DNA of 64,000 nt from an uncultured Acidobacteriota bacterium. Lineage in GTDB: Bacteria > Acidobacteriota > Thermoanaerobaculia > Gp7-AA8. A program made the translations under genes and the position numbers. The number at the start of each line of letters is the position of its first letter. Within the stretch, counting starts at the first letter, position 1. Below are positions 6,354-63,688 of this stretch, piece by piece. Below the pieces are notes generated by a model, which saw only the letters and a list, made by a program, of their open reading frames with translations, made no database searches and was not told where the DNA came from. The stretch covers positions 62,001-126,000 of the forward strand of contig CALMZP010000032.1 of NCBI GenBank assembly GCA_937870635.1. Reading direction: 5' to 3'.

Positions 6354-6686
6354 ATGCCGATGTACCTGACCCGGTTCAGCTACACGCCCGAAACGTGGGC
6401 AAAGCTCATCAGAAATCCCGAGGATCGCCGGGCGGCGGCGAAGAAGTACATTGAATCCGTGGGCGGCAAGCTGCACGGTTTCTGGTACGCGTTCGGCGAC
6501 AACGACGGGTACAACCTGTGGGAGGCTCCCGACAACGTGTCGATGGCAGCGACGGCGCTCGCGATCAGCGGCGGCGGAGCGCTCAGCTCCTTCCACACGA
6601 CCGTGCTCCTCAGCGTGGAGGAGACCATGGCCGCGATGCAGAAGGCTGCCTCCATCGGCTACAAGCGGCCTGGAGACGAAGGATAG
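6354..6686 (+). CDS. GYD-domain protein
   Basis: The 110-aa protein covers the GYD domain (PF08734): a ferredoxin-like beta-alpha-beta fold opening MYLTRFSYTPETW and carrying the strand GFWYAFGDNDGYNLWEAPD, where the family's GxYD-like motif appears as DGYNLWEAPD. A C-terminal helix VEETMAAMQKA follows. The family is small, stand-alone and of unknown function, with fold similarity to dimeric alpha-beta barrel stress proteins. Start chosen by aaggag 8-13 bp upstream of the ATG. Confidence 0.85.
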   Translation: MPMYLTRFSYTPETWAKLIRNPEDRRAAAKKYIESVGGKLHGFWYAFGDNDGYNLWEAPDNVSMAATALAISGGGALSSFHTTVLLSVEETMAAMQKAASIGYKRPGDEG

Positions 6687-6970: not shown

Positions 6971-7634
6971 GCGCCAGCCAGACCAGAAAACGATTCCCCT
7001 TGCCGCCCTTCCCCCCGCGCACCTGATGTTCCTCGGCACTGAAACCGGCGCGGCGTAACTTCTTCGTGAACGCCGCGTCCTCGCTGGCAGACCAGATCGC
7101 CAGCATTCCCCCTTCGCGCAGCGCCGTGAACGCCGCGCGCAAACCCGCCGACGTGTAAAGGCGGTTATTGTCTTTCGCGGTGAGTGCGGCTGGTCCGTTG
7201 TCGACATCGAGGACGATCGCATCGAAAGCATCCTTCGCTCCGATGATGAGAGAGGCGACGTCGGCCACGCGCACGGTGACACGCTTATCCTTCAGCGCCG
7301 CACCGTTGATCTCCGCCATCACCCCGCGGTTCCACTCCACGACCTCGGGCAGCAGCTCGGCGACGACGACGGAACTACGCGGACCCACACGGGCAAGCAT
7401 CGCAGCGAGCGTGAAGCCCATTCCCAATCCGCCAATCAGGACTCGGGCCGAGGCAGGATCGCGGAGCCGGTCGGCGACGAGGGTCGAGAGTGCGTCTTCC
7501 GAGCCGTGCACGCGGCTGTTCATCAGCTCGTACGAGCTGACGCGGATGGAGAATTCGCCGCCGCGGCGGTAGAGGCGCATCTCCTCTCCGTCTCCGGGGA
7601 TCGTGGCCGTGGCCAGCAGGGTCCAGGGAAGCAT
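6963..7634 (-). CDS. Spermidine-synthase-like class I SAM-dependent methyltransferase
   Basis: The 223-aa product has the class I SAM fold: ARVLIGGLGMGFTLAAML is the glycine-rich motif I, VVVAELLPEVVEWNRG places an acidic residue at the end of strand 2, and DAFDAIVLDVDNGP is the acceptor strand region. This pattern is typical of spermidine-synthase-like proteins lacking the full polyamine site. The start at 7634 (MLPWTLL) is preferred over 7748, because the extra upstream codons read through an intergenic repeat. Its 3' end coincides with the break in the DUF2892 gene. Substrate unknown. Confidence 0.75.
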   Translation of the reverse strand: MLPWTLLATATIPGDGEEMRLYRRGGEFSIRVSSYELMNSRVHGSEDALSTLVADRLRDPASARVLIGGLGMGFTLAAMLARVGPRSSVVVAELLPEVVEWNRGVMAEINGAALKDKRVTVRVADVASLIIGAKDAFDAIVLDVDNGPAALTAKDNNRLYTSAGLRAAFTALREGGMLAIWSASEDAAFTKKLRRAGFSAEEHQVRGGKGGKGNRFLVWLARR

Positions 7635-25763: not shown

Positions 25764-26057
25764 CCTTCTCCCCACCAAAGAGTGGGGGGGGAGAAGGTGG
25801 CCGCGCAGCGGCGGATGAGGGGGCCGGGCCCGGGGAGAGGGTCGAGGGGGCCGGGAATGTTGAATGTTCAATGGTGAATGTTCAATGGTGAATGCTGAAT
25901 GTGAAACCGACTCATTCAACATTCACCATTGAACGTTCACCATTCACCATTCCCGTCCCCTCGACTTTCCTTCGAACACCTTCCCTCGAACCTCGCGCAG
26001 CCCCCTCATCCGGCCTTCGGGGTCACCTTCTCCCCCAGTCTTCGCTGGGGGAGAAGG
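25764..26057. repeat. Nested compound palindrome (294 bp)
   Basis: Fills the gap between the DGPF and MFS genes. Outer units are two gggggagaagg hairpins (25764-25799 and 26026-26057); inside them are inverted gatgagggggc/gccccctcatc words, then gtcgaggggg/cccctcgac, and at the core a heptamer palindrome of aatggtgaatgttc words (25856-25953). The symmetry is strong at four levels. No gene is visible. Confidence 0.75.
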
Positions 26058-27312: not shown

Positions 27313-27373
27313 CGAACGATGAACGATGAACGATGGCACTCGCGCATCGTTCATCGTTCATCGTTCATCGTTG
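27313..27373. repeat. Heptamer-word palindrome (gaacgat family)
   Basis: Left arm of gaacgat words (27313-27335) and right arm of atcgttc words (27345-27373) form a near-perfect hairpin with a 9-base loop between TetR and MFS genes. The last codon and stop of the TetR gene (27365-27370) are made of the repeat. Confidence 0.85.
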
Positions 27374-27991
27374 ACCATTCCTCAGCATCCCGTGCCTGAG
27401 GATCCGCGAGATCTCGCCGACCACCTCCTCGGTGCCTTTGCCGAAGTGGTCCTTGACGCCGAAGAGAATCTCGATGGAAAAGTAGTTATAGAAGATGCGC
27501 GTGGCGAGCATGACCGCCGAGGTTGGAGAGAGGCCTTCCTGGAGCTTCTCGCGGAGACCCTCTTCCATGTCGTGCTTCTTCATGAAGGTCTCGAAGCGTG
27601 TAGCCATGTCCTCATAGAACTTGCGGACGTGCGACCCGTCGAACTCGACGACATCGACGTAAATGAGCGCGACGTATTCGCGGTAATTGCGGACGGCGTC
27701 GCGGGCAGCGTGGCCGAGCTCTTCGAGGTTCTCCGGGAAAGTCCCGGTGGCCAGCGCGCGATTGAACGGGAAATCGGGCTGGGACATCGCCACGAAATAC
27801 CGGTCGAGCAGCTCGCGGAAGATCGTCTCCTTGTCGGGAAAGTGATGATAGAGATTTCCCTTGGAAAGCCCCGCTTCCTCGGCGATGTCGTTGACGCTGG
27901 TCGCCCCGTATCCGCGATGCGAGAACAGCTTCAACGCAGCGTCGAGGATGTGCTTGCGGCTCCGTTCGGAGCGTGTCACCTGACGGCTCAT
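27365..27991 (-). CDS. TetR/AcrR-family transcriptional regulator
   Basis: The 208-aa protein has the N-terminal TetR helix-turn-helix (residues about 10-55: ILDAALKLFSHRGYGATSVN, then DIAEEAGLSKGNLYHHFPDK) and a helical ligand-binding C-terminal domain with FPFNRALATGTFPENLEELG. It overlaps the acyl-CoA ligase gene by ATGA and is the sixth gene of the operon led by the TonB receptor. Autoregulation through the 12-bp palindrome ccgaccggtcgg upstream of the receptor is plausible. Ligand is unknown; acyl-CoA is a reasonable guess from the neighbours. Confidence 0.9.
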   Translation of the reverse strand: MSRQVTRSERSRKHILDAALKLFSHRGYGATSVNDIAEEAGLSKGNLYHHFPDKETIFRELLDRYFVAMSQPDFPFNRALATGTFPENLEELGHAARDAVRNYREYVALIYVDVVEFDGSHVRKFYEDMATRFETFMKKHDMEEGLREKLQEGLSPTSAVMLATRIFYNYFSIEILFGVKDHFGKGTEEVVGEISRILRHGMLRNGQR

Positions 27992-29463
27992 GTGAGGGCG
28001 GCGCGAAGACGCGCCTTTTCCACCTTTCCGTACGGGGTCCGAGGTAGTGCATCGACGAAGATGAACTGCCGCGGCACTTTGTACCGGGCGATGCGCATCG
28101 TCAGATATCGGGTGAGATCATCGGCGGAAACGTCGCGCGCCACCACGAAGGCGACGCCCGCTTCGCCCCACGTCTCGTGCGGAACGGCGATCACGGCGGC
28201 GTCGGAGACCGACGGATGGAGAACGAGCTCGGCTTCGATCTCGGCAGGATAGACGTTGACGCCGCCGCTGATAAACATCTCCTTGCGGCGTCCGGCGATG
28301 TAGAAGAAGCCGTCGTCATCGCAACGGGCAAGATCGCCGGTGCGGAACCAGCCGCCTTCGAGATAGCTCTGAGCGGTCTCCACGGGATTGCCCCAGTAGC
28401 CGGTGCTGACGTGCGGCCCGCGGATGTACATCTCGCCGACCTCGCCCGCCCCGACGGAATGACCGTCGGCGTCGCGCAGCTCGACTTCCGTGAACAGCAT
28501 CGGCCGGCCGATCGACCCCCGTTTCGCCCGCGACTCTCCCTCACTCATCGTGAAACAGTTCACTCCCACCTCGGTCATACCGTAGCCCTGCTTGAGAACC
28601 ACGCCACGATTCTCATAAGCCTCGCTGATGTACGCCGGGAGAGGGGCTCCGCCGCTGATGAACCACCGCACACGGTCGAGCGACACGCTCTGAAATTCGG
28701 GAGCTTCCATGAGCAGCTTCCAGATCGTGGGGACACCGAGGACGACGGTGCATCCTTCGCGCTCGATCGTTTTCCAGACCTCCGAAGCGTCGAATGCCTT
28801 GTGCAGCACGATCGTCCCGCCAGCGCAGAAGAGCGGGATGAGGAACACCGCCAGTCCTCCAGCGTGGTACAGCGGTGTGAAGATCGAAGAGACGTCGTCC
28901 TCGCGGAGCCCCCAGCTCATCACGGTGTTGCAGCCGTTCCAGAGCAGCTGGCGGCGCGGGATCATCACGCCCTTGGGCCTGCCGGTCGTGCCGCTGGTGT
29001 AGAGCAGCGCGTACGTGGCTTCATCGTGCAAGGCACGATCGTTCACCGTTAACCGTTCACCGTTAACCGAAGCTTCAACTTGAATCTCGGTTAACGGTTC
29101 ACGGTTAACGGTTAACGATTCTGCGATCGACGCCAGATCTTCTCCATACCAGAGCGCTTTCATGCCGCAGTCGTCGACGATCGCCTGCAGCTCGTGCGCG
29201 GTGGCGCGCGTGGACAGCGGGACGACGATCGCGCCGCATTTCCCGGCGGCGAAGAAGAACGCCACGTATTCGATCGAGTTGTGCGCGAGAATGCCGAAAC
29301 GGTCGCCCGGCTGAACGCCCGCGGCGGCGATCGCTCCGGCGGCCTGTTCCGCGAGCGCATCGAGCTCCCGATACGTGAGGCGCCGTCCGGTCTCGACGGA
29401 GACCAGCGCCAGCCTGTCGGGCGTGATGCGGGCGCGCTCCGCTAGCAGGTCGCCTTCAAACAT
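27988..29463 (-). CDS. Class I adenylate-forming acyl-CoA synthetase/ligase
   Basis: The 491-aa enzyme carries the ANL motifs: A3 phosphate loop LLYTSGTTGRPKG near residue 153, A5 GYGMTEVG, A7 GGWFRTGDLAR, the hinge GRRKEMFISGGVNVYPAEIE and the catalytic-Lys end TPYGKVEKARL. It should adenylate a carboxylic acid, probably a fatty or aromatic acid, and form a thioester. Residues 116-141, just before A3, are encoded by an 82-bp palindromic repeat made of gttaacg/gttcacc words, so this insertion is not part of the ancestral enzyme. It overlaps both neighbours in the operon. Confidence 0.92.
   Translation of the reverse strand: MFEGDLLAERARITPDRLALVSVETGRRLTYRELDALAEQAAGAIAAAGVQPGDRFGILAHNSIEYVAFFFAAGKCGAIVVPLSTRATAHELQAIVDDCGMKALWYGEDLASIAESLTVNREPLTEIQVEASVNGERLTVNDRALHDEATYALLYTSGTTGRPKGVMIPRRQLLWNGCNTVMSWGLREDDVSSIFTPLYHAGGLAVFLIPLFCAGGTIVLHKAFDASEVWKTIEREGCTVVLGVPTIWKLLMEAPEFQSVSLDRVRWFISGGAPLPAYISEAYENRGVVLKQGYGMTEVGVNCFTMSEGESRAKRGSIGRPMLFTEVELRDADGHSVGAGEVGEMYIRGPHVSTGYWGNPVETAQSYLEGGWFRTGDLARCDDDGFFYIAGRRKEMFISGGVNVYPAEIEAELVLHPSVSDAAVIAVPHETWGEAGVAFVVARDVSADDLTRYLTMRIARYKVPRQFIFVDALPRTPYGKVEKARLRAALT
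29038..29119. repeat. Heptamer palindrome inside the acyl-CoA ligase gene
   Basis: Arms at 29038-29070 and 29087-29119 (33 bp each, about 30 matches) built from gttcacc/gttaacc words, with a 16-base loop. It is read through as roughly residues 116-142 of the ligase without breaking the frame. Confidence 0.88.
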
Positions 29464-34882: not shown

Positions 34883-35085
34883 GGGCGGGCGATCCCGTCC
34901 GCGCGACCGCGTGGAGCGGCGGGCGACCTCGCCCGCCGGGTCAGTGGCCGCGGGCGAGGTCGCCCGCGCTCTCCCACCATCCGTCGCGAGTCCGCCCGTC
35001 CGTGTGATCGCGGGCGGGATCGCCCGCGGCTTCACCGTGGGTCCCGGCACTCAGCACCCAGCCCCAAGCACTCAGCACCGGAACG
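34883..35085. repeat. Cluster of gcgggcga/tcgcccgc palindromes and agcactc heptamer words
   Basis: Palindromes at 34916-34937, 34949-34968 and 35009-35028 share the plan gcgggcg-N-cgcccgc, with a partial copy near 34883. They are followed at 35046-35085 by 7-bp words (cactcagcacccagcc, caagcactcagcacc). This occupies most of the 336-bp gap between the receptor and permease genes. Confidence 0.75.
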
Positions 35086-37337: not shown

Positions 37338-37357
37338 CGCGGGCGGGGTCGCCCGCG
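37338..37357. repeat. gcgggcg/cgcccgc palindrome, solo copy
   Basis: cgcgggcggggtcgcccgcg, same plan as the copies at 34916-35028 and 63661-63680. Confidence 0.8.
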
Positions 37358-37379
37358 TTCCACTGCAGCTAACAGGCCC

Positions 37380-38807: not shown

Positions 38808-38824
38808 CTGTTTTCTAACACGAT

Positions 38825-38908
38825 TTGGACCCTGGACCTTGGACCTTGGACCTTGGGACTGCGTGTTCTGCGCTTTTCAAGGTCCAGGGTCCAGGGTCCA
38901 GGGTTCAG
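38825..38908. repeat. Heptamer-word palindrome (ggaccct / ggacctt family)
   Basis: Left arm 38825-38854 (ggaccct, ggacctt, ggacctt) and right arm 38879-38908 (aggtcca, gggtcca, gggtcca) form a 30-bp stem. The right arm includes the TGA stop of the ATPase gene (38905-38907). Confidence 0.85.
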
Positions 38909-41343
38909 ATTTTCACCGTCCTCAGGCGGAGGGCGTTAGCGATGACGGATACGGAGCTGAAGCTCATCGCGGCGGCGGCGATCATCGGGCTGAGCAGCAT
39001 GCCGAAGACCGGATAGAGAATGCCCGCGGCGACCGGAACGCCGATGACGTTGTAGATGAACGCAAAGAAGAGATTCTGGCGGATGTTTCTCATCGTGGCG
39101 TTGCTGAGGCGTCGCGCGCGCACGATTCCGCGCAGGTCTCCTTTGACGAGGGTTACCCCGGCGCTCTCCATCGCCACGTCCGTTCCGGTTCCCATCGCGA
39201 TCCCGACCTGAGCCTGTGCCAGCGCCGGCGCGTCGTTGATGCCGTCGCCCGCCATCGCCACGATGTGACCTTGCGATTGCAGCCTCTTCACGACATCGGC
39301 TTTCTGATCGGGCAGGACGTCGGCGACGACCTCGTCGATGCCGAGCTTCGCCGCCACGGCCTTCGCCGTGGTGATGCTGTCGCCGGTGAGCATCACGATG
39401 CGCACGCCGGCTTCATGCAGTCCGGCGATCGCATCCTTCGAGGTCTCCTTGATCGGATCGGACACGCCGACGAGTCCTGCGGGCTTGCCATCGATGACGA
39501 CGAACATCACCGACTGCCCGTCTCCGCGGAGGCGTTCGGCGAGATCGGCGAGCTCGCGCGAATCGACGTCAAGGTCCGTGAGCAATGCCTGATTTCCGAC
39601 GGCGACGACGTGGCCATCCACGTTCCCCTGCACACCTTTGCCGGTGACCGACTGGAATTCCGTCGCGGCCTGCACGGCGATCCCGCGGTTCTCCGCACCG
39701 GCGATGATCGCCGCGGCGAGAGGGTGTTCGCTCGCACGTTCCACCCCGGCCGCGAGGCGAAGCATTTCCTTCTCATCGAATCCGGCCGCAGCGATGACCG
39801 TCGTCAGCTGCGGCCTGCCGACGGTCAGAGTCCCCGTCTTGTCGACCACCAGCGTGTCGACGGTGCGCAGAACCTCGATCGATTCGGCGTTGCGGAACAG
39901 CACTCCCGCGGTCGCGCCCTTCCCCGCCGCGACCATGACCGACATCGGGGTGGCCAGTCCAAGGGCGCAGGGGCAGGCGATGATGAGGACAGCAACGGCG
40001 TTGACGATGGCGTACACGAGCCGCGGCTCGGGACCGAGATAAGACCATACCCCGAACGTGATCGCCGAAACCGCGATCACCGTCGGCACGAACCAGGCCG
40101 ATACCACGTCGGCGAGCCTCTGAATCGGGGCGCGGCTGCGTTGAGCCTGCGCGACCATGTTCACGATCTGGGAGAGGAGCGTGTCCGCCCCGACGCGTTC
40201 GGCCTTCATGAGAACCGACCCCGTGGTGTTGACGGTCGCGCCGATGAGTCTCGCACCGGCCGACTTCTCCACCGGGAGCGGCTCGCCCGTCACCATCGAT
40301 TCGTCGACGTTCGTCGTCCCCTCGAGGACCACGCCGTCCACAGGGACCTTCTCTCCGGGACGCACGCGCAACGTGTCGCCGGGCCGCACTTCTTCGAGCG
40401 GAACGTCGCGCTCGACCCCGTCCTCCACGCGGCGCGCGGTCTTCGGGGCGAGGCCGAGGAGCGCGCGGATTGCGGCGCCGGTGCGGCTGCGGGCGCGAAG
40501 CTCCATCACCTGTCCGAGAAGGACGAGGGTCACGATCGCGGCCGCTGCTTCGAAGTAGACCCCGACGTGTCCCATGTCATCCTTGAACGAGGCGGGGAAC
40601 ACGCGCGGGAACAGCGTCGCAAAAAGGCTGTAGACGTACGCCACGGCGACACCGAGTCCGATCAGCGTGAACATGTTGAGGTGTCTGTTCACCACGGACG
40701 CCCATGCACGTTGAAAGAACGGCCAGCCACCCCACAGCACGACCGGCGTCGCCAGGGCCAGCTCGAACCACGGCGCGTACATCGTCAGTGTGTGACCGAA
40801 CATGTCGTGCGCGCCCGGCATGTGCCGCGCCATCGCAAAGATCACGAGTGGCACGGTGAGAACGGTGCTGACCCAGAAGCGCCGGGCCATGTCCTCGAGC
40901 TCGGGATTCTTCTCCTCGATCATCACGCTGCGCGGCTCGAGCACCATCCCGCAGATCGGGCAGCTGCCCGGCGCGTCCCGCACGATCTCCGGATGCATCG
41001 GGCACGTCCACTCGGTCCTCGTCGCCAGCGCAGTGACCATCTCCGGCTCGAGGGCCATGCCGCACTTCGGGCAGGCGCCCGGACCCTTCTGGCGAACCTC
41101 GGGATCCATCGGGCAGGTGTAGATCGCATTCTCGGCGCCGGCGGGGACCGGCTCCGGCTTCGACGCGGCCGCCTCGCCGATGTATGCCGACGGATCGGCG
41201 TTGAACTTCTTCTTGCACGCGATCGAGCAGAAGTAATAGACCTTGCCTCCAACGCGCGATGAGCCGGCGGCGTTTTCCGGATCGACCGTCATGCCGCAGA
41301 CCGGATCGATGACGGCCGCGGCAGGTTCGTGCTGATGGTTCAT
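38905..41343 (-). CDS. Copper-translocating P1B-type ATPase with YHS and two heavy-metal binding domains
   Basis: The 812-aa pump starts with a YHS domain ([17 protein letters not shown] and [12 protein letters not shown]), then two HMBD modules ([20 protein letters not shown] and [20 protein letters not shown]), about eight membrane helices with the metal site Cys457-Pro-Cys459, phosphorylation site DKTGTLT (Asp501), the SEHPLAAAI His-Pro motif, and [16 protein letters not shown] with these N-terminal modules indicates Cu(I)/Ag(I) export. The start at 41343 follows gaggggga. A broken stand-alone YHS gene lies 17 bp upstream. Control by a CueR- or CsoR-type regulator is not visible. Confidence 0.93.
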
Positions 41344-41548: not shown

Positions 41549-41665
41549 GGGGTTGTCATGGTGTCAGGTCTGGAAAAGCAACTTTTCTTCCGTTTCTGAC
41601 GACAAATGCCGCCTTCAAAAAAGGAAGAAAAGTTGCTTTTCCAGACCTGACACCATGACAACCCC
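41549..41665. mobile_element. MITE-like perfect palindrome (43-bp arms)
   Basis: Arms 41549-41591 and 41623-41665 are exact reverse complements over 43 bp (ends ggggttgtcatggtgtcagg and cctgacaccatgacaacccc) with a 31-bp loop. No transposase is encoded. The wording gtgtcaggtctggaaaa resembles palindromes linked to REP-associated tyrosine transposases (IS200-like) in other bacteria. It lies between the YHS start codon and the sigma-factor gene. Confidence 0.85.
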
Positions 41666-46142: not shown

Positions 46143-46169
46143 GTGGAGCGGCGGGCGATCTCTCCCGCG
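46143..46169. repeat. gtggagcggcgggcga/tctcccgcg palindrome
   Basis: Degenerate copy of the gcgggcga/tcgcccgc family with the tggagc flank that also marks the copies at 34911 and 61250. Confidence 0.65.
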
Positions 46170-56355: not shown

Positions 56356-58655
56356 CGGCGGCGAACGAGTCGGCGCTCAAAGCTGCGCTCCCTGAATCTG
56401 AGGAACAGCCGGCGGTATCGCCCGCAACGGGGCCGCGCGTGAGGACGCCCGTTGCGGTGCTGGTGACCCGGTTCCCGCGCATCGCCGAAACGTTCATCCT
56501 TCGGGAGATCAATGAGCTCGAGCGGCTCGGCCAGCCGGTGGTTCTCGTGCCTCTTCTCAGGAACTACAGCCCCGTCGTGCATGAAGAGGCGAAGCCATGG
56601 ATGGGGCGCGCGCTGTTCATGCCGCTCATGTCGTTCGCCATCCTTCGCGCGAACGTCCTCCGGCTGGTGCGCGAGCCTCGACGCTACCTCGGCCTTCTGC
56701 TCACGCTGATCATCCAGACCCTGATCCGGCCCAGCGTGATGCTTCGAACGATCGCTCTTTTCCCGAAGTCGGTCTACCTGGCTTCCCGCCTTCCGAAGCT
56801 CGGCATCAGGCACGCCCACGCACACTTCGCCGTTCATCCGGCGACGATGGCCTATATCATCGCTTCGCTGAGCAACATCACGTTCAGCTTCACGATCCAT
56901 GGCCCGGATGTCTTCGTCCATCGCCTTCTGCTGCGTGAAAAGATCGCCAAGGCGAAGTTCGTCCGCGCGGTCTCGACGTTCATCAAAGCGTTCGTGAGCG
57001 GCCTCTATCCGGAGGAGAGCGAAGGCAAGATCGAAGTGGTCCACGTCGGCGTGAACCCCGACGTGTACGTGGATGCCGCCATCAACTCGACGAGGCGAAG
57101 CCCGCGCATCCAGATCCTCTCGGTCGCGGCGCTGACCGAGGCGAAGGGGTATCACTTTCTGGTGGACGCGGTTGCGGCACTGGTCAAGGAGGGGGTCGAT
57201 CTCGAATGCCGCATCGTCGGCGACGGCCGGCAACGGGACGCGATCGCCGAACGCATCGCGCAGCATGGAATGGGCGACCGCTTCCGGATGATGGGCGCAC
57301 TGCCCCAGCACGAAGTGGCGCGGCTGCTCGGCGACGCCGACATTTTCGTACTCCCGAGCGTGATTGCCTGGAACGGCCAGATGGACGGGATTCCCATTTC
57401 GCTCATGGAGGCCATGGCCGCCGGCAAGCCTGTGGTCGGGTCCGCAATCTCCGGCATTCCGGAGCTGGTGCAGCATGAGACGAACGGTGTTCTGGTCGAC
57501 GCGACTCATCCGGAACGGATTGCCGCCGCGATTCGAAGGCTGACCGACGATCCCGAGCTGCGGTTGAAGTTCGGCCGGAGTGGCCAGGAGCGCGTGCGTT
57601 CCGAATTCGACGTGAGGGTGACCTCGGCGAAAGTCATCGACCTTTTCTCCAGACACGATCGGCCGGAGCGGTCCGCGCACGAAGAGATCTCCAGACTCAA
57701 CTGGGGCCGGCTCAATACATGCGCGCTCGGCCTGCGCCGCCTGCGCGAGCGCCGCGACTCATTCGTCGCCGAGCTGACCATCACCGACGGAATCTCCTGG
57801 CGCGACGTGGTCGTCAAGAGGCAGCGTGGCCGAAGCGGCGAATCGAGATCAGCGTTCGACCGGGCTCGCGACGAATACCGCATCCTACGGGAGCTGCGCG
57901 AGAAAATGCCCGGTCCCGCCGCCGAACGGGCCGACGACATCTCCTACACGGTTCCACGCCCGCTCGTATTCGACGAGAAGCACGCGGCTCTCATCATGGA
58001 GCGCGCTCGCGGGAAAGCACTGGAAAGCCTGATCCGTTCATCGCGCAACAGCAGCCTCGGCCGAGGACTTCTGACGCCGCTCCGGAGGGCGGGACGCTGG
58101 CTGAAAGCGATGCAGGAGGTGACGCACATCGACGACGACGGGCGCCATCTGCTGACGGCCATCGTTGTCGTCGCCGCGCGGGATCTCGAGCTCGCCGCGG
58201 CAGCTCATCGTCCGCTGCGGCGTGAGCGGGAGAGGATCATCGAGACCTTGAGGATGCTCGAAACGCGTGTGGCGTCGAATCCCATACCGGCCGTGGGGCA
58301 TCATGGCGACTACTGGCCCGGCAACGTCTTCGTCGGAGAGCGCCGAGTGGAAGTGATCGACTTCGAGGGATTTCGCGAGGGTCTTTCGCTCGAAGACGTC
58401 GCATACTTCCTCATCCATCTCAGGATGTACTTCGACTATCCGATCTTCCGCCGTTACCTGCCGCGACTGGAGCAGTCCTTTCTGGACGGTTTCTCCGATG
58501 GTTCGCTGCGGGCCGACGACGACGCGCTGCGGCTCTTCAAGATCGCGAAGGGTCTGCAGGTCCTCGCGCGCGGCGGTGTCGCATCTGCGCGCGGACCGCG
58601 TGCGCGGTGGCATCGCACGCGTCTTCGCGAGCTGATCCTGGAGAGCGCGAGGTGA
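56352..58655 (+). CDS. GT4 glycosyltransferase fused to an aminoglycoside-phosphotransferase-like kinase domain
   Basis: The 767-aa protein has a GT-B domain (about 30-440) with RFPRIAETFILREINELERL, HAHFAVHPATMAYI, LSVAALTEAKGYHFLVDAVA and the acceptor block EAMAAGKPVVGSAISG, then an APH-like kinase fold (about 470-760): VVVKRQRG as the Lys strand, the catalytic loop GHHGDYWPGNVFVG (His651, Asp653, Asn658) and VEVIDFEGF as the metal-binding segment. Both modules look intact. Kinase activity on a lipid-linked sugar is a fair guess. It overlaps the flippase by GTGA. Confidence 0.85.
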   Translation: MTAANESALKAALPESEEQPAVSPATGPRVRTPVAVLVTRFPRIAETFILREINELERLGQPVVLVPLLRNYSPVVHEEAKPWMGRALFMPLMSFAILRANVLRLVREPRRYLGLLLTLIIQTLIRPSVMLRTIALFPKSVYLASRLPKLGIRHAHAHFAVHPATMAYIIASLSNITFSFTIHGPDVFVHRLLLREKIAKAKFVRAVSTFIKAFVSGLYPEESEGKIEVVHVGVNPDVYVDAAINSTRRSPRIQILSVAALTEAKGYHFLVDAVAALVKEGVDLECRIVGDGRQRDAIAERIAQHGMGDRFRMMGALPQHEVARLLGDADIFVLPSVIAWNGQMDGIPISLMEAMAAGKPVVGSAISGIPELVQHETNGVLVDATHPERIAAAIRRLTDDPELRLKFGRSGQERVRSEFDVRVTSAKVIDLFSRHDRPERSAHEEISRLNWGRLNTCALGLRRLRERRDSFVAELTITDGISWRDVVVKRQRGRSGESRSAFDRARDEYRILRELREKMPGPAAERADDISYTVPRPLVFDEKHAALIMERARGKALESLIRSSRNSSLGRGLLTPLRRAGRWLKAMQEVTHIDDDGRHLLTAIVVVAARDLELAAAAHRPLRRERERIIETLRMLETRVASNPIPAVGHHGDYWPGNVFVGERRVEVIDFEGFREGLSLEDVAYFLIHLRMYFDYPIFRRYLPRLEQSFLDGFSDGSLRADDDALRLFKIAKGLQVLARGGVASARGPRARWHRTRLRELILESAR

Positions 58656-60142
58656 CGCGGCAGGGGGGCGTCGCCCGCACGACTGCGCGAGCAGCCGTGT
58701 GGGCTTTCGTATCGACGGGTGGCGCCAAGGTGATCACCCTCGTCGGCCTGATCTTTCTGGCGCGCCTTCTCGCGCCGGCAGAATTCGGACTGCTGGCCTT
58801 TGCCCTCGTCTACATCACGTACGCCGAAACCATCGGCGACCTTGGATCCGGCACCGCCCTGGTCTACTGGCCCGACCGTCGAGAAGAAGCATCGCAGGTC
58901 ACCTTTCTCATCAACCTGGCAGCGGGCACGTTCTGGTGCCTCCTGACGATCCTCATCGCTCCCGCCATTGCCCACTTCTTCAACAGCCCCAACGGCACTC
59001 CCATCGTCCGCACGCTGGCGTTCGGCTTCCTGATCAAGTATCTGGGCAACACACACGACGCGCTGGCGAGGAAAGATCTTCGCTTTCGGGCGCGTGCGGT
59101 TCCCGAGCTGGGGCTGGCCCTGCTGAAGGCCGTGATCTCGATCGCTCTGGCTTACGCGGGGTTCGGCGCGTGGAGTCTGGTCTGGGGGCACCTGGCGGGG
59201 CTTGCCTGCTGGACGGCCTTTCTCTGGTTCATGGTTCCCTGGCGGCCGGGCTTCACCGTGCCGAAAGATCTCGTGAAGCCCATGCTCCGATACGGAAGGG
59301 GGATCATCGCGGTCAACATCATCGCGTCGGTGCTCCATCATGCCGACCTCGCGATCGTCGGCCGGTTCCTGGGAGTGACTTCGCTCGGCCTGTATCAGAT
59401 CGCTGCGAAGATTCCCGAGGCGACGGTGATCGTGTTGTTGTGGGTGGTGAGCAGTGTTCTCTTTCCGACGTTCTCGAAGCTGCACGCCGCTGGCAGCAGC
59501 CTCGAGCGGCCGTATCTGATCGCCACGCGCTATGTATCGGCGGTGACATTTCCGGCGGCCGTCGGCCTGGCGCTGCTCGCGCGCCCATTGCTGCTGCTGT
59601 TCTTCGGACCGCAGTGGGCAAGCGCGGCGCCGATCCTCACCGCGCTGGCAGCCTATTCCGGGCTGCGGTCGATCACGAGCCACGCCGGCGACATTCTCAA
59701 GGCGACGGGACGCGCCCAGGTCTTGGCCGGCATCGCGGTGGTGCAGGCCCTTCTTCTGCTGCCGGCACTCCTCATCGGTGCGATGCGAAGCGCGGTCGCC
59801 GTCGCGGCGGCGCTTGCGATCGTCGAGCTCGTTGCGGCGTCGGTCAAACTGGTGATTGCGTCGCGCCTCATCAACGTTCGCCTGTTCAAGATCGTCCGCT
59901 CCTTTGCCCGCAGCGGAGTGGCCGCGGCAACCCTTGGTGGCTTTCTCCTGGCCTGGAACTACTACTCGGTTGACCTCGGCCCACTGACGCAGGTCATCGT
60001 CGGCGTGATCGGCGGAGGCATCATCTATGCGATCGCTCTCCGGCTGGTGGATCCCACGATCTTCGCCTTCGCCTGGGAAGTCCTTTTCAAGAGAAAAACT
60101 CCGCCGGCCGACGAGCTCGCGAGGGCCACGTCCACCTCATGA
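58652..60142 (+). CDS. Wzx-type polysaccharide flippase (MOP superfamily)
   Basis: The 496-aa protein has about twelve to fourteen hydrophobic helices and the N-terminal MOP signature RAAVWAFVSTGGAKVITLVG, then FLARLLAPAEFGLLAFALVY and LARKDLRFRARAVPELGLAL, typical of the PST/lipopolysaccharide flippase branch. It should move the lipid-linked repeat unit across the inner membrane. The GTG start at 58652 overlaps the upstream stop (GTGA), and its own stop overlaps the next ATG (ATGA at 60139-60142). Confidence 0.92.
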   Translation: MTRQGGVARTTARAAVWAFVSTGGAKVITLVGLIFLARLLAPAEFGLLAFALVYITYAETIGDLGSGTALVYWPDRREEASQVTFLINLAAGTFWCLLTILIAPAIAHFFNSPNGTPIVRTLAFGFLIKYLGNTHDALARKDLRFRARAVPELGLALLKAVISIALAYAGFGAWSLVWGHLAGLACWTAFLWFMVPWRPGFTVPKDLVKPMLRYGRGIIAVNIIASVLHHADLAIVGRFLGVTSLGLYQIAAKIPEATVIVLLWVVSSVLFPTFSKLHAAGSSLERPYLIATRYVSAVTFPAAVGLALLARPLLLLFFGPQWASAAPILTALAAYSGLRSITSHAGDILKATGRAQVLAGIAVVQALLLLPALLIGAMRSAVAVAAALAIVELVAASVKLVIASRLINVRLFKIVRSFARSGVAAATLGGFLLAWNYYSVDLGPLTQVIVGVIGGGIIYAIALRLVDPTIFAFAWEVLFKRKTPPADELARATSTS

Positions 60143-62544
60143 GCGCCGATCGGAAGATGCGTCTTCTGTGGCTGATCGACTCGTTCAACGTCGGCGGCGC
60201 GGAATCGCTGGTCCTGCCGTTCACGCGCAACTACGATCGGAACCGCTACGAGCTCGTTCTCTGCTGCCTGACTTCGATCGGAGGCAATCCGATCGAGCGC
60301 CAGCTCGCCGCGGAAGGCGTCAGCGCAGTCAATCTTGGAGCGAGAAACCTTCGGGATGTCGCGGCGTTTCGCCGGCTGCTCAGGCTCATTCGCAGCGAGA
60401 AGATCGATCTGATTCACGCGCATCTGACTTATGCCGCAACGTGGGCCGCGCTCGCGTCACGCTTGACGCAGGTCCCCTCCGTAGCGACGTTGCATGTTGC
60501 TCCTCCATTGCATGGAGGTGCGGCGGTCCGCGACCGCCTGATGCGTTTCGGGCTGAATCGCTGGTCGTCCAAAGTCATCATGGTCTCCGATGCCCTGCGA
60601 AAGGACTACCTCGAGCGCGGCGGATTGTCGCGATCGAAGGTCGTCGTCGCTCACAACGGCATCGAGGTCGAGCGTTTCCACGGCGACCGGAGCGCAGCGC
60701 GGGCGAAGATCGAACGGGAGTTCGACATTCCGGCCGGAGCGGAGGTGATCGCCACCGTTTCCGTGATGCGTCCGGGTAAGGGGATCGAAGTGCTGCTGGA
60801 CGCGGCGCGCCGAATTCGCGAGCAGCGGCCCCGCGCAATGTTCCTACTCATCGGAGATGGGGAGAAGCGCGCCGAGTGGGAATCGCTCGCCGCCAGCCGC
60901 GGCATCTCCGACTTCGTTCGCTGGGCCGGTCACCGGGCCGACGTGTCGGAACTTCTGCCGGGGTGCGACATCCTCGCGCATCCAACGCTGGCTGACGCGT
61001 TTCCGACGGTCCTGCTCGAGGCGATGGCGGCCGGCCTGCCCGTGATCGCCTCGTCGGTCGGGGGGGTTCCGGAGATCGTCGAGCCTGGGATCACGGGCCA
61101 GCTCGTTCCGCCCGGCGATCCGGCGGCTCTGGCTGCAGCGATCGTCGCGATCCTCGCAGTGGCGGAACCGATGCGAGAGTCCGCACGACGTATCGCGACA
61201 ACCAGGTTCTCGACACGTGCGTGGCTGGCCCGTCTCGACGAGATCTACAGTGGAGCGCGGGCGACCTCGCCCGCGTCCTCAACGGGCACCGCCGGCGAGG
61301 TTTCCCGCGCTCCACGTCCTCCCAGGATCGCTTTCGTCGAATTTGCGGGGAAAGGCGGAATGATCCACTACGCCTTTCAGCTCTGCCGCGGGATGGCCGC
61401 GCAGGGCGCGGACGTCACGCTCGTTACCTCGACCGATTACGAGCTCGAACATCTCCAGGCACCGTTCAAAGTGGAGCGCCTCATCAATCTCTGGGACCCG
61501 AAACCCGCGGGCCTTCTCTCGATGACGCCCTGGGCCGTCGGAGGGCGCAAGCTCCGCCGCATTTTCCGCGCCGCGAGGTATTACGGCCAATGGCTGCGGC
61601 TCAACCGATACATTGCCGAGACGCGTCCCGACATCGTGCTACTCGGAGACATCCGCTTTCCGTTCGACCTTTTCCCTCTCCTTCTGCTCAGAAGGACGGC
61701 CCGGAGCCTCACGGACATCTGCCACAACGTCCACCCGTTCTCCGCCGGTGGGAAGTCGGGCGGCCTATTCGACCGTTCGCGGTTCAAGCGATTGTTTTAT
61801 CGCCGCATCTACCGGCTGTTTGATCGGGTCTTCGTCCACTACGACCGCAATCGAGCGGAATTCATCGAGAGCTTCGGAATTCCCGAGAGGAGAGTCGGCG
61901 TCATCGTCCACGGAAACGAAGAAATCTTCCGCGACCTCCGCAACACCGCTGTCGATGCCGCGGCTCTGCGCCGGCGACATGGCCTCGGCGGCGACCCGGT
62001 CGTCCTGTTTTTCGGGACGCTGTCCCGCTACAAGGGCACCGATGTTCTGCTGCGCGCCTTCCCCTCCATCCGGGCCAAAACGAATGCGAGGCTCGTGCTG
62101 GCCGGCTTTCCGTTCCACGACTTCAACGTGGCCGAGCATCAGGAGCTGGCGCGAACGCTGGGCGTTGGCGACTTTGTGAAATGGGTGGCCGAGTACATCG
62201 ATTCCGGAGAGATCGCGGCATGGATGGAACTTGCCAGCGTCATCGTGTTTCCTTATCGCGACATCTATCAGAGCGGAGCGCTGCACGTTCCTCAGACCTT
62301 CGGCGTTCCGATCGTAGCGAGCGCCGTGGGGGCGATGCAGGATGTCGTCAAAGACGGCGAGTCGGGCCTGCTCGTACCGCCGGAGGACGTCGAAGCGCTC
62401 GCGGCCGCAGTGACCAGACTTCTCGAAAATCGCGAGCTGGCCGCCCGTCTCGGATCCCGCGCCGCGGCCGACGCGCAGGGGCCGTTCTCATGGTCCAGCA
62501 TTGCCACCACGATTCTCGCAAACGACAACCGGAGGACGATTTGA
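60139..62544 (+). CDS. Double GT4 glycosyltransferase, two GT-B enzymes joined by a palindrome-encoded linker
   Basis: The 801-aa protein holds two full GT-B domains. The first (about 1-371) opens LLWLIDSFNVGGAESLVLPF and has VSVMRPGKGIEVLLDAARRI and ALLEAMAAG-like acceptor wording (VLLEAMAAGLPVIASSVGGV). The second (about 395-800) opens IAFVEFAGKGGMIHYAFQLC and has VLFFGTLSRYKGTDVLLRAF and PQTFGVPIVASAVGAMQD. Between them residues 371-393 are encoded by a 66-bp palindrome (61250-61315), exactly 22 codons, so two genes were probably fused by that element. It overlaps the next gene by TTGA. Confidence 0.9.
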   Translation: MSADRKMRLLWLIDSFNVGGAESLVLPFTRNYDRNRYELVLCCLTSIGGNPIERQLAAEGVSAVNLGARNLRDVAAFRRLLRLIRSEKIDLIHAHLTYAATWAALASRLTQVPSVATLHVAPPLHGGAAVRDRLMRFGLNRWSSKVIMVSDALRKDYLERGGLSRSKVVVAHNGIEVERFHGDRSAARAKIEREFDIPAGAEVIATVSVMRPGKGIEVLLDAARRIREQRPRAMFLLIGDGEKRAEWESLAASRGISDFVRWAGHRADVSELLPGCDILAHPTLADAFPTVLLEAMAAGLPVIASSVGGVPEIVEPGITGQLVPPGDPAALAAAIVAILAVAEPMRESARRIATTRFSTRAWLARLDEIYSGARATSPASSTGTAGEVSRAPRPPRIAFVEFAGKGGMIHYAFQLCRGMAAQGADVTLVTSTDYELEHLQAPFKVERLINLWDPKPAGLLSMTPWAVGGRKLRRIFRAARYYGQWLRLNRYIAETRPDIVLLGDIRFPFDLFPLLLLRRTARSLTDICHNVHPFSAGGKSGGLFDRSRFKRLFYRRIYRLFDRVFVHYDRNRAEFIESFGIPERRVGVIVHGNEEIFRDLRNTAVDAAALRRRHGLGGDPVVLFFGTLSRYKGTDVLLRAFPSIRAKTNARLVLAGFPFHDFNVAEHQELARTLGVGDFVKWVAEYIDSGEIAAWMELASVIVFPYRDIYQSGALHVPQTFGVPIVASAVGAMQDVVKDGESGLLVPPEDVEALAAAVTRLLENRELAARLGSRAAADAQGPFSWSSIATTILANDNRRTI
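61250..61315. repeat. In-frame palindrome linking the two glycosyltransferase domains
   Basis: Arms 61250-61271 (gtggagcgcgggcgacctcg start) and 61294-61315 (cccgcgctccac end) match at 20 of 22 positions with a 22-base loop. It belongs to the gcgggcga/tcgcccgc family with tggagc flanks. Length 66 bp preserves the frame. Confidence 0.9.
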
Positions 62545-63467: not shown

Positions 63468-63688
63468 TGGAGTGCGGCAGCTTGCTCGCTGCCGCAACAT
63501 TCTGTCATCCCGAGCGTGAGCGAGGGAACTGGGGGGCGGGTGGCGCGAACATCATTCCTCGTGCCGCCCATCCCCCAGGTCCCTCGCTCAAGCTCGGGAT
63601 GACACGCTTTTGGATGACACGCTTTTGGAGATTGCCCTCCTTGCTGCCGCACTCCAAAGTCCGCGGGCGGGATCGCCCGCGGCTCCAC
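63468..63688. repeat. Compound inverted repeat after the EPS operon
   Basis: Outer perfect 13-bp arms ggagtgcggcagc (63469-63481) and gctgccgcactcc (63643-63655) enclose inner arms tcatcccgagcgtgagcgag (from 63505) and its inverse (63573-63602), plus a 14-bp tandem (gatgacacgctttt twice). A gcgggcg/cgcccgc palindrome follows at 63661-63680 with gctccac. It may serve as transcription end for both converging genes. No gene visible. Confidence 0.75.

Follow-up and report, generated by a model that had tools for sequence, protein, structure and literature searches.

How did two complete glycosyltransferases come to be encoded by one uninterrupted reading frame with a palindrome lying between them? 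Gene fusion is a main source of multidomain proteins, yet the molecular event behind it can seldom be seen. In the present case the putative agent has stayed at the junction, where it can be identified and linked to a candidate transposase, and the occurrence of two such cases in one genome makes the idea testable. The window, meaning the whole stretch of 64,000 nucleotides analysed, belongs to a metagenome-assembled acidobacterial genome, and the features discussed are collected in Table 1.

The fused open reading frame translates into 801 aa with no internal stop, and its start forms a 4-bp ATGA overlap with the upstream flippase gene (58607-60142). The Pfam domains Glyco_transf_4 and Glycos_transf_1 were each found above cutoff in two stretches, one per half, giving both halves the N- and C-terminal domains of GT4 (GT-B) enzymes; both also match solved GT-B enzymes in the PDB. 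The first half is 57-60% and the second 65-68% identical to separate genes in three related genomes (G015, G004 and G001), and relative-rate tests detected acceleration in neither half. From its sequence, the frame is predicted to yield a working two-domain protein as one chain.

Table 1. Features at the fusion junction, elsewhere in the window and elsewhere in the genome. Plain positions refer to the window; prefixed positions refer to other stretches.
Feature	Position	Strand	Basis or remark
Single ORF, 801 codons, two fused GT4/GT-B glycosyltransferases	60139..62544	+	ORF listing, translation, Pfam
First GT4 glycosyltransferase, ending in conserved ...RLDEIY	60139..61248	+	Pfam; PDB matches such as 4xso
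Stretch without ATG/GTG/TTG in the frame of the second gene	61171..61360	+	Between codons 345 and 408
REPIN, two inverted REP units	61250..61315	+	Encodes (S)GARATSPASSTGTAGEVSRAP(R)
Left REP unit	61250..61275	+	Exact match to family consensus GTGGAGCGCGGGCGACCTCGCCCGCG
Right REP unit	61290..61315	-	3 mismatches to consensus GTGGAGCGCGGGCGACCTCGCCCGCG (older or drifting copy)
GTCCTCCCAGG, sole remnant between REPIN and ATC of second gene	61316..61326	+	Junction comparison; CCC replaces the ATG/TTG start of relatives
Second GT4 glycosyltransferase, start codon lost	61318..62541	+	Pfam; PDB matches
Degenerate intergenic REPIN-like pair, same superfamily	34911..34974	+	
Single intergenic REP unit	37339..37363	-	2 mismatches
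RAYT transposase gene, 180 aa	L161:6620-7162	-	NF047646, 104 bits (cutoff 80)
PTS protein EIIA-HPr-EI-EIIC-EIIB, 1456 aa	G000:C32:22379-26749 = L094:2379-6749	-	

The first-pass annotation had placed a palindrome between two GT-B halves within a single stop-free frame, and it is indeed present. Its arms, given there as 22 bp, had been understated and measure 26 nt, with 23 of the 26 positions paired (88% complementary) around a 14-nt loop. The length of 66 nt does correspond to the 22 codons described, but the element begins at base 2 of codon 371 and so lies one base off the codon register. As RNA it folds into one hairpin at -52.4 kcal/mol, whereas 200 dinucleotide-shuffled versions average -28.7 +/- 3.2 (z -7.4), and only one equally palindromic 66-mer was found elsewhere in the 64-kb window. 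Relatives of the repeat do exist across the window, as had been proposed, yet they are scarce, and their sequences are more degenerate (34911-34974, 37339-37363 and 46143); the strong evidence for a family lies in genome-wide counts and not in the window copies.

The junction element is a REPIN belonging to a REP family with a GTGG tag. More than 40 full-length close copies of it were found in its own genome (4.52 Mb, 171 contigs), where the unit GTGGAGCGCGGGCGACCTCGCCCGCG occurs singly, as tandem copies or in inverted pairs whose spacers are unrelated, mostly 62-79 bp in all. Allowing up to 2 mismatches, the 25-nt unit has 370 matches in this genome against 0 for a reversed control, and a single match in total was detected in 147 other genomes of the class; the family therefore spread after the lineage split from every sampled relative. 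The unit is a 26-nt imperfect palindrome with a GCGGGCGA/TCGCCCGC stem, agreeing with GTAG-type REPs in size (20-40 bp) and in high copy number. Nearly all units open with GTGG, a variant of the GTAG tag that is accepted in the description of that family (PMC3733652). Inverted pairs with a spacer, the arrangement that defines a REPIN, numbered 37 in the census described below; identical 4- or 5-nt flanks, as left by the target-site duplication of a classical MITE, were seen in 0 of these 37. No stop codon occurs in the REP unit in any of the six frames.

The same genome encodes a RAYT transposase flanked, as in a REPtron, by exact REPs in inverted orientation (6636-6660 on the minus and 7214-7238 on the plus strand of L161). 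In the PDB it matches TnpAREP alone, and weakly (E-value 8e-4), and its C-terminal codons are themselves REP-derived (ILSGARATSPAPSRR). This linkage suggests that the REPINs are probably mobilised by this RAYT.

At E <= 1e-80 the GT4 gene pair was found in only four other genomes of the class (149 searched, own genome included), and it is fused in none. Two separate GT4 genes share a 4-bp stop/start overlap, TTGA in G015 and G001 and ATGA in G004 and G018. A fifth, more distant record recovered by contig scan (L055) likewise has a separate pair with an ATGA overlap. This record (L055:1475-5324), titled Actinomycetota MAG32, keeps the flippase-GT4-GT4 order, with identities of 39-42%; the pair may be ancient, may have been transferred horizontally or may come from a bin that is mislabelled. 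The flanks across the fusion junction are syntenic with the relatives. Two expectations set down with the first-pass annotation could be followed up in these genomes: the halves do occur as separate overlapping genes in all five relatives, always by 4 bp, and the linker residues, whose presence there without the palindrome would have spoken against its reading, were looked for and are absent from all five, as is the palindrome itself.

At the window junction the first gene ends in ...RLDEIY and the second resumes with ATC GCT TTC, preceded by CCC AGG where the relatives have (A/T)TG AAG. No in-frame ATG, GTG or TTG lies between codons 345 and 408, and a start at codon 408, which falls within the conserved GGMIHYAF motif, would come too late to leave the N-terminus intact. 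Barring a non-canonical start, the second enzyme can therefore be made whole only via the fusion. With the 4-bp overlap gone and no in-frame start able to produce the second half intact, the comparison marks the fused state of the pair as derived.

The element had been thought to have replaced a stop/start junction. Both codons are indeed missing here, but insertion alone cannot have sufficed. A 4-bp overlap leaves the two genes one base out of phase, so that fusion needs a net change of +1 modulo 3, and the REPIN, at 66 bp, contributes 0 modulo 3. From the conserved Tyr codon to the ATC of the second gene there are 20 nt in G015 and G001, compared with 12 nt outside the REPIN in the window (1 before it and 11 after). 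The junction as read thus combines the REPIN with the loss, compared with these two genomes, of some 8 nt net, stop and start codons included, or with equivalent changes. The idea that REPINs within genes are necessarily 3n long was rejected, as 7 of 15 are not, and flanking adjustments therefore appear to be common.

A second REP-bridged fusion was found in a PTS protein, where a tandem REP array (RGAPGDPARGAPGDPARGARATPPVERGRPRPR) separates EIIA-HPr-EI from EIIC-EIIB. In the closest relative for this protein (G007), the one genome used for the comparison, both parts are neighbouring genes with a one-base overlap, TGATG. The stop is gone in the fused form, the first gene's end has given way to the array and the ATG of the second is kept in frame, a state that fits insertion before fusion. 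At least two REP-bridged fusions were recorded in about a third of one genome. A membrane and GDSL frame (C45:51875-52660) was rejected as a third, as both parts are in one gene in G003 and G018. An 869-aa frame on the plus strand (C45:14393-17002 = L056:14393-17002) has a YfhO-like half, which is truncated, and a glycosyltransferase-like half around a 79-bp REPIN; several relatives encode the C half separately, its N half has no clear adjacent partner, and it is possibly a third REP-bridged fusion.

The census of REP units covered 1.575 Mb in stretches from mostly larger contigs known to carry elements, and is not a random sample; genes were called with a simple purpose-written dicodon gene finder (coding fraction 0.89). 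Of 185 units, 78 (~42%) lie wholly within predicted genes and 107 outside, with genes filling 89% of the 1.57 Mb. The units are accordingly depleted in genes relative to chance and enriched outside, as expected of filtered insertion, yet the share inside is well above what the "mainly extragenic" location of GTAG-type REPs would suggest, and the family, first noted between genes, is not confined to intergenic DNA. Internal in-frame units with coding potential on both sides were found in 31 genes (47 units). Those recognised by Pfam or sequence include LeuRS (two units), PheT, a Glu/Gln-type tRNA synthetase, an aconitase-family enzyme, a UvrD-type helicase, MutS2, DnaX (three units), lipoyl acyltransferase (three units), dihydroorotate dehydrogenase and a PD-(D/E)XK nuclease. 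Thirty-one of the 47 units are read in the two frames giving GARATSPA or AGEVARAP (binomial p = 6e-6 against an expectation of 1/3, the units being not fully independent). In MutS2 and PheT the units occupy linkers or loops that differ from one relative to another.

Fusion of the GT4 genes assisted by insertion of the REPIN is the explanation that we hold to be probable. From an ancestor with two GT4 genes joined by a 4-bp stop/start overlap, a REPIN would have inserted near the 3' end of the first gene, and with it a small deletion, or a frame change to the same effect (net about -8 nt), would have removed stop and start and put both genes in one frame. The outcome would be one chain whose halves are joined by a Gly/Ala/Ser/Pro/Arg linker, and the second gene would be left without a usual start of its own. 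Being free of stops in all six frames, REP copies landing in loops, linkers or gene junctions could be read through. We infer that insertion preceded or caused the fusion: the present frame follows from the sequences compared, the order of steps does not, and that order is not observable since no congeneric genome was found. The main rival reverses the order, with a small indel across the 4-bp overlap joining the genes and the REPIN entering a permissive linker later. It takes this rank because the family demonstrably enters existing linkers, as the 31 genes with internal units (MutS2, DnaX and lipoyl acyltransferase among them) indicate, and it is kept live by the ~42% of sampled units inside predicted genes; REP units occupy length-variable linkers in the non-fused MutS2 and PheT, and the window REPIN alone does not supply the frame change needed. 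Two REPs exactly at old gene boundaries would nevertheless be a coincidence if fusions are rare, a rough argument, and the PTS protein still has its second ATG in frame, with the array in place of the end of the first gene. On balance, fusion before insertion is considered rather unlikely.

Two further explanations concern the fused frame itself. A chimeric join or an indel at a repeat might be suspected in a metagenome-assembled genome of 171 contigs, as short-read assemblies err at repeats. The 66-bp repeat is, however, shorter than ordinary reads, synteny with the relatives continues across the junction, and the start codon is missing altogether instead of lying out of frame; nor would random error be expected to leave housekeeping genes with dozens of in-frame units and no disrupting frameshift. 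An artefact is accordingly very unlikely. The second half could also be a dying gene whose start was removed by the insertion, leaving a non-functional fused tail. The lost start codon would agree with this, and the strong mRNA hairpin (-52 kcal/mol) could hinder the ribosome or attract RNases, but the C half stays open over 408 codons with a high coding score, is 65-68% identical to its split orthologues and evolves no faster, which makes decay similarly improbable.

Known systems share parts of this picture. The REPINs and RAYTs of Bertels & Rainey (2011, PMC3116915) have the same inverted REP pairs, variable spacer, single hairpin and REP-flanked RAYT in the genome, but were defined in extragenic space, whereas ~42% of the units sampled here lie in predicted genes and one REPIN bridges two genes. 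In-frame REPs, singly and as dimers, were reported for GTAG/CGTC families, UvrD helicase and tRNA synthetases included, in several species and at the highest level for GTAG types in Opitutus terrae, whose GTAG-20 mostly has the GTGG tag, as here (Di Nocera et al., 2013, PMC3733652). That paper makes no mention of gene fusion (the words "fusion" and "fused" are absent), whereas a REP bridges fused genes here, and its acidobacterial transposases are TIR-flanked, unlike the REP-flanked RAYT of this genome. The classic case of in-frame insertion is that of the Rickettsia palindromic elements, mobile palindromes found in frame in unrelated genes and translated with them (PMC10969869). The present REP works like an RPE without being one: it enters many unrelated genes in frame (31 genes), but RPE-1 is ~150 bp and RPE-4/6 are CGTC-tagged, compared with GTGG-tagged units of 25-26 bp, pairs of 62-79 bp and a RAYT here, and the two phyla are unrelated. 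Coxiella QMITEs are likewise short mobile repeats from which host genes gain stop codons or additional coding sequence; in the parts of that account consulted (PMC5896051) the changes are mainly terminal and the bridging of two genes, as seen here, is not mentioned. In-frame REPs are therefore already known, while no description of a REP at a gene-fusion junction was found in the open-access papers searched.

These observations add a bacterium of another phylum to the short list of heavy in-frame REP insertion headed by Rickettsia and Opitutus. They also carry a warning for annotation: GARATSPA, AGEVARAP and similar peptides stem from REPs and are not conserved motifs. It is tentatively suggested that in this lineage a stop-free, RAYT-linked REP may act as a recurrent fusion-and-linker engine at coupled stop/start overlaps of operon genes, while decorating dozens of genes in frame. 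If true, REPs landing at such overlaps would turn neighbouring genes into multidomain proteins.

The proposal that all repeats of this genome behave alike was rejected, since in two unrelated families, with 40 and 25 matches, no copy lies within a gene. A palindrome of a different dispersed family (TGTCATCCCGAGCGTGAGCGAGGGA) lies at 63503-63604 of the window, with 40 matches in 1.57 Mb and none in genes. A sister REP subfamily (GTGGAGCCGCGGGCGATCCCGCCCGC; window 34911-35035, 46143-46168 and 63663-63688) has 79 matches in 1.57 Mb, of which 17 fall within predicted genes. At 41549-41665, between divergently oriented predicted genes, there is a very long inverted repeat with 51-nt arms (96% complementary) and a 15-nt loop, AT-richer than its surroundings. 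Intergenic arrays of inverted 6-8-nt words (e.g. GAATGTTCAATGGT, CGTTAACCGTTCACC and GGACCTTGGACC) were also observed at 25855-25952, 27314-27380, 29033-29124 and 38823-38910.
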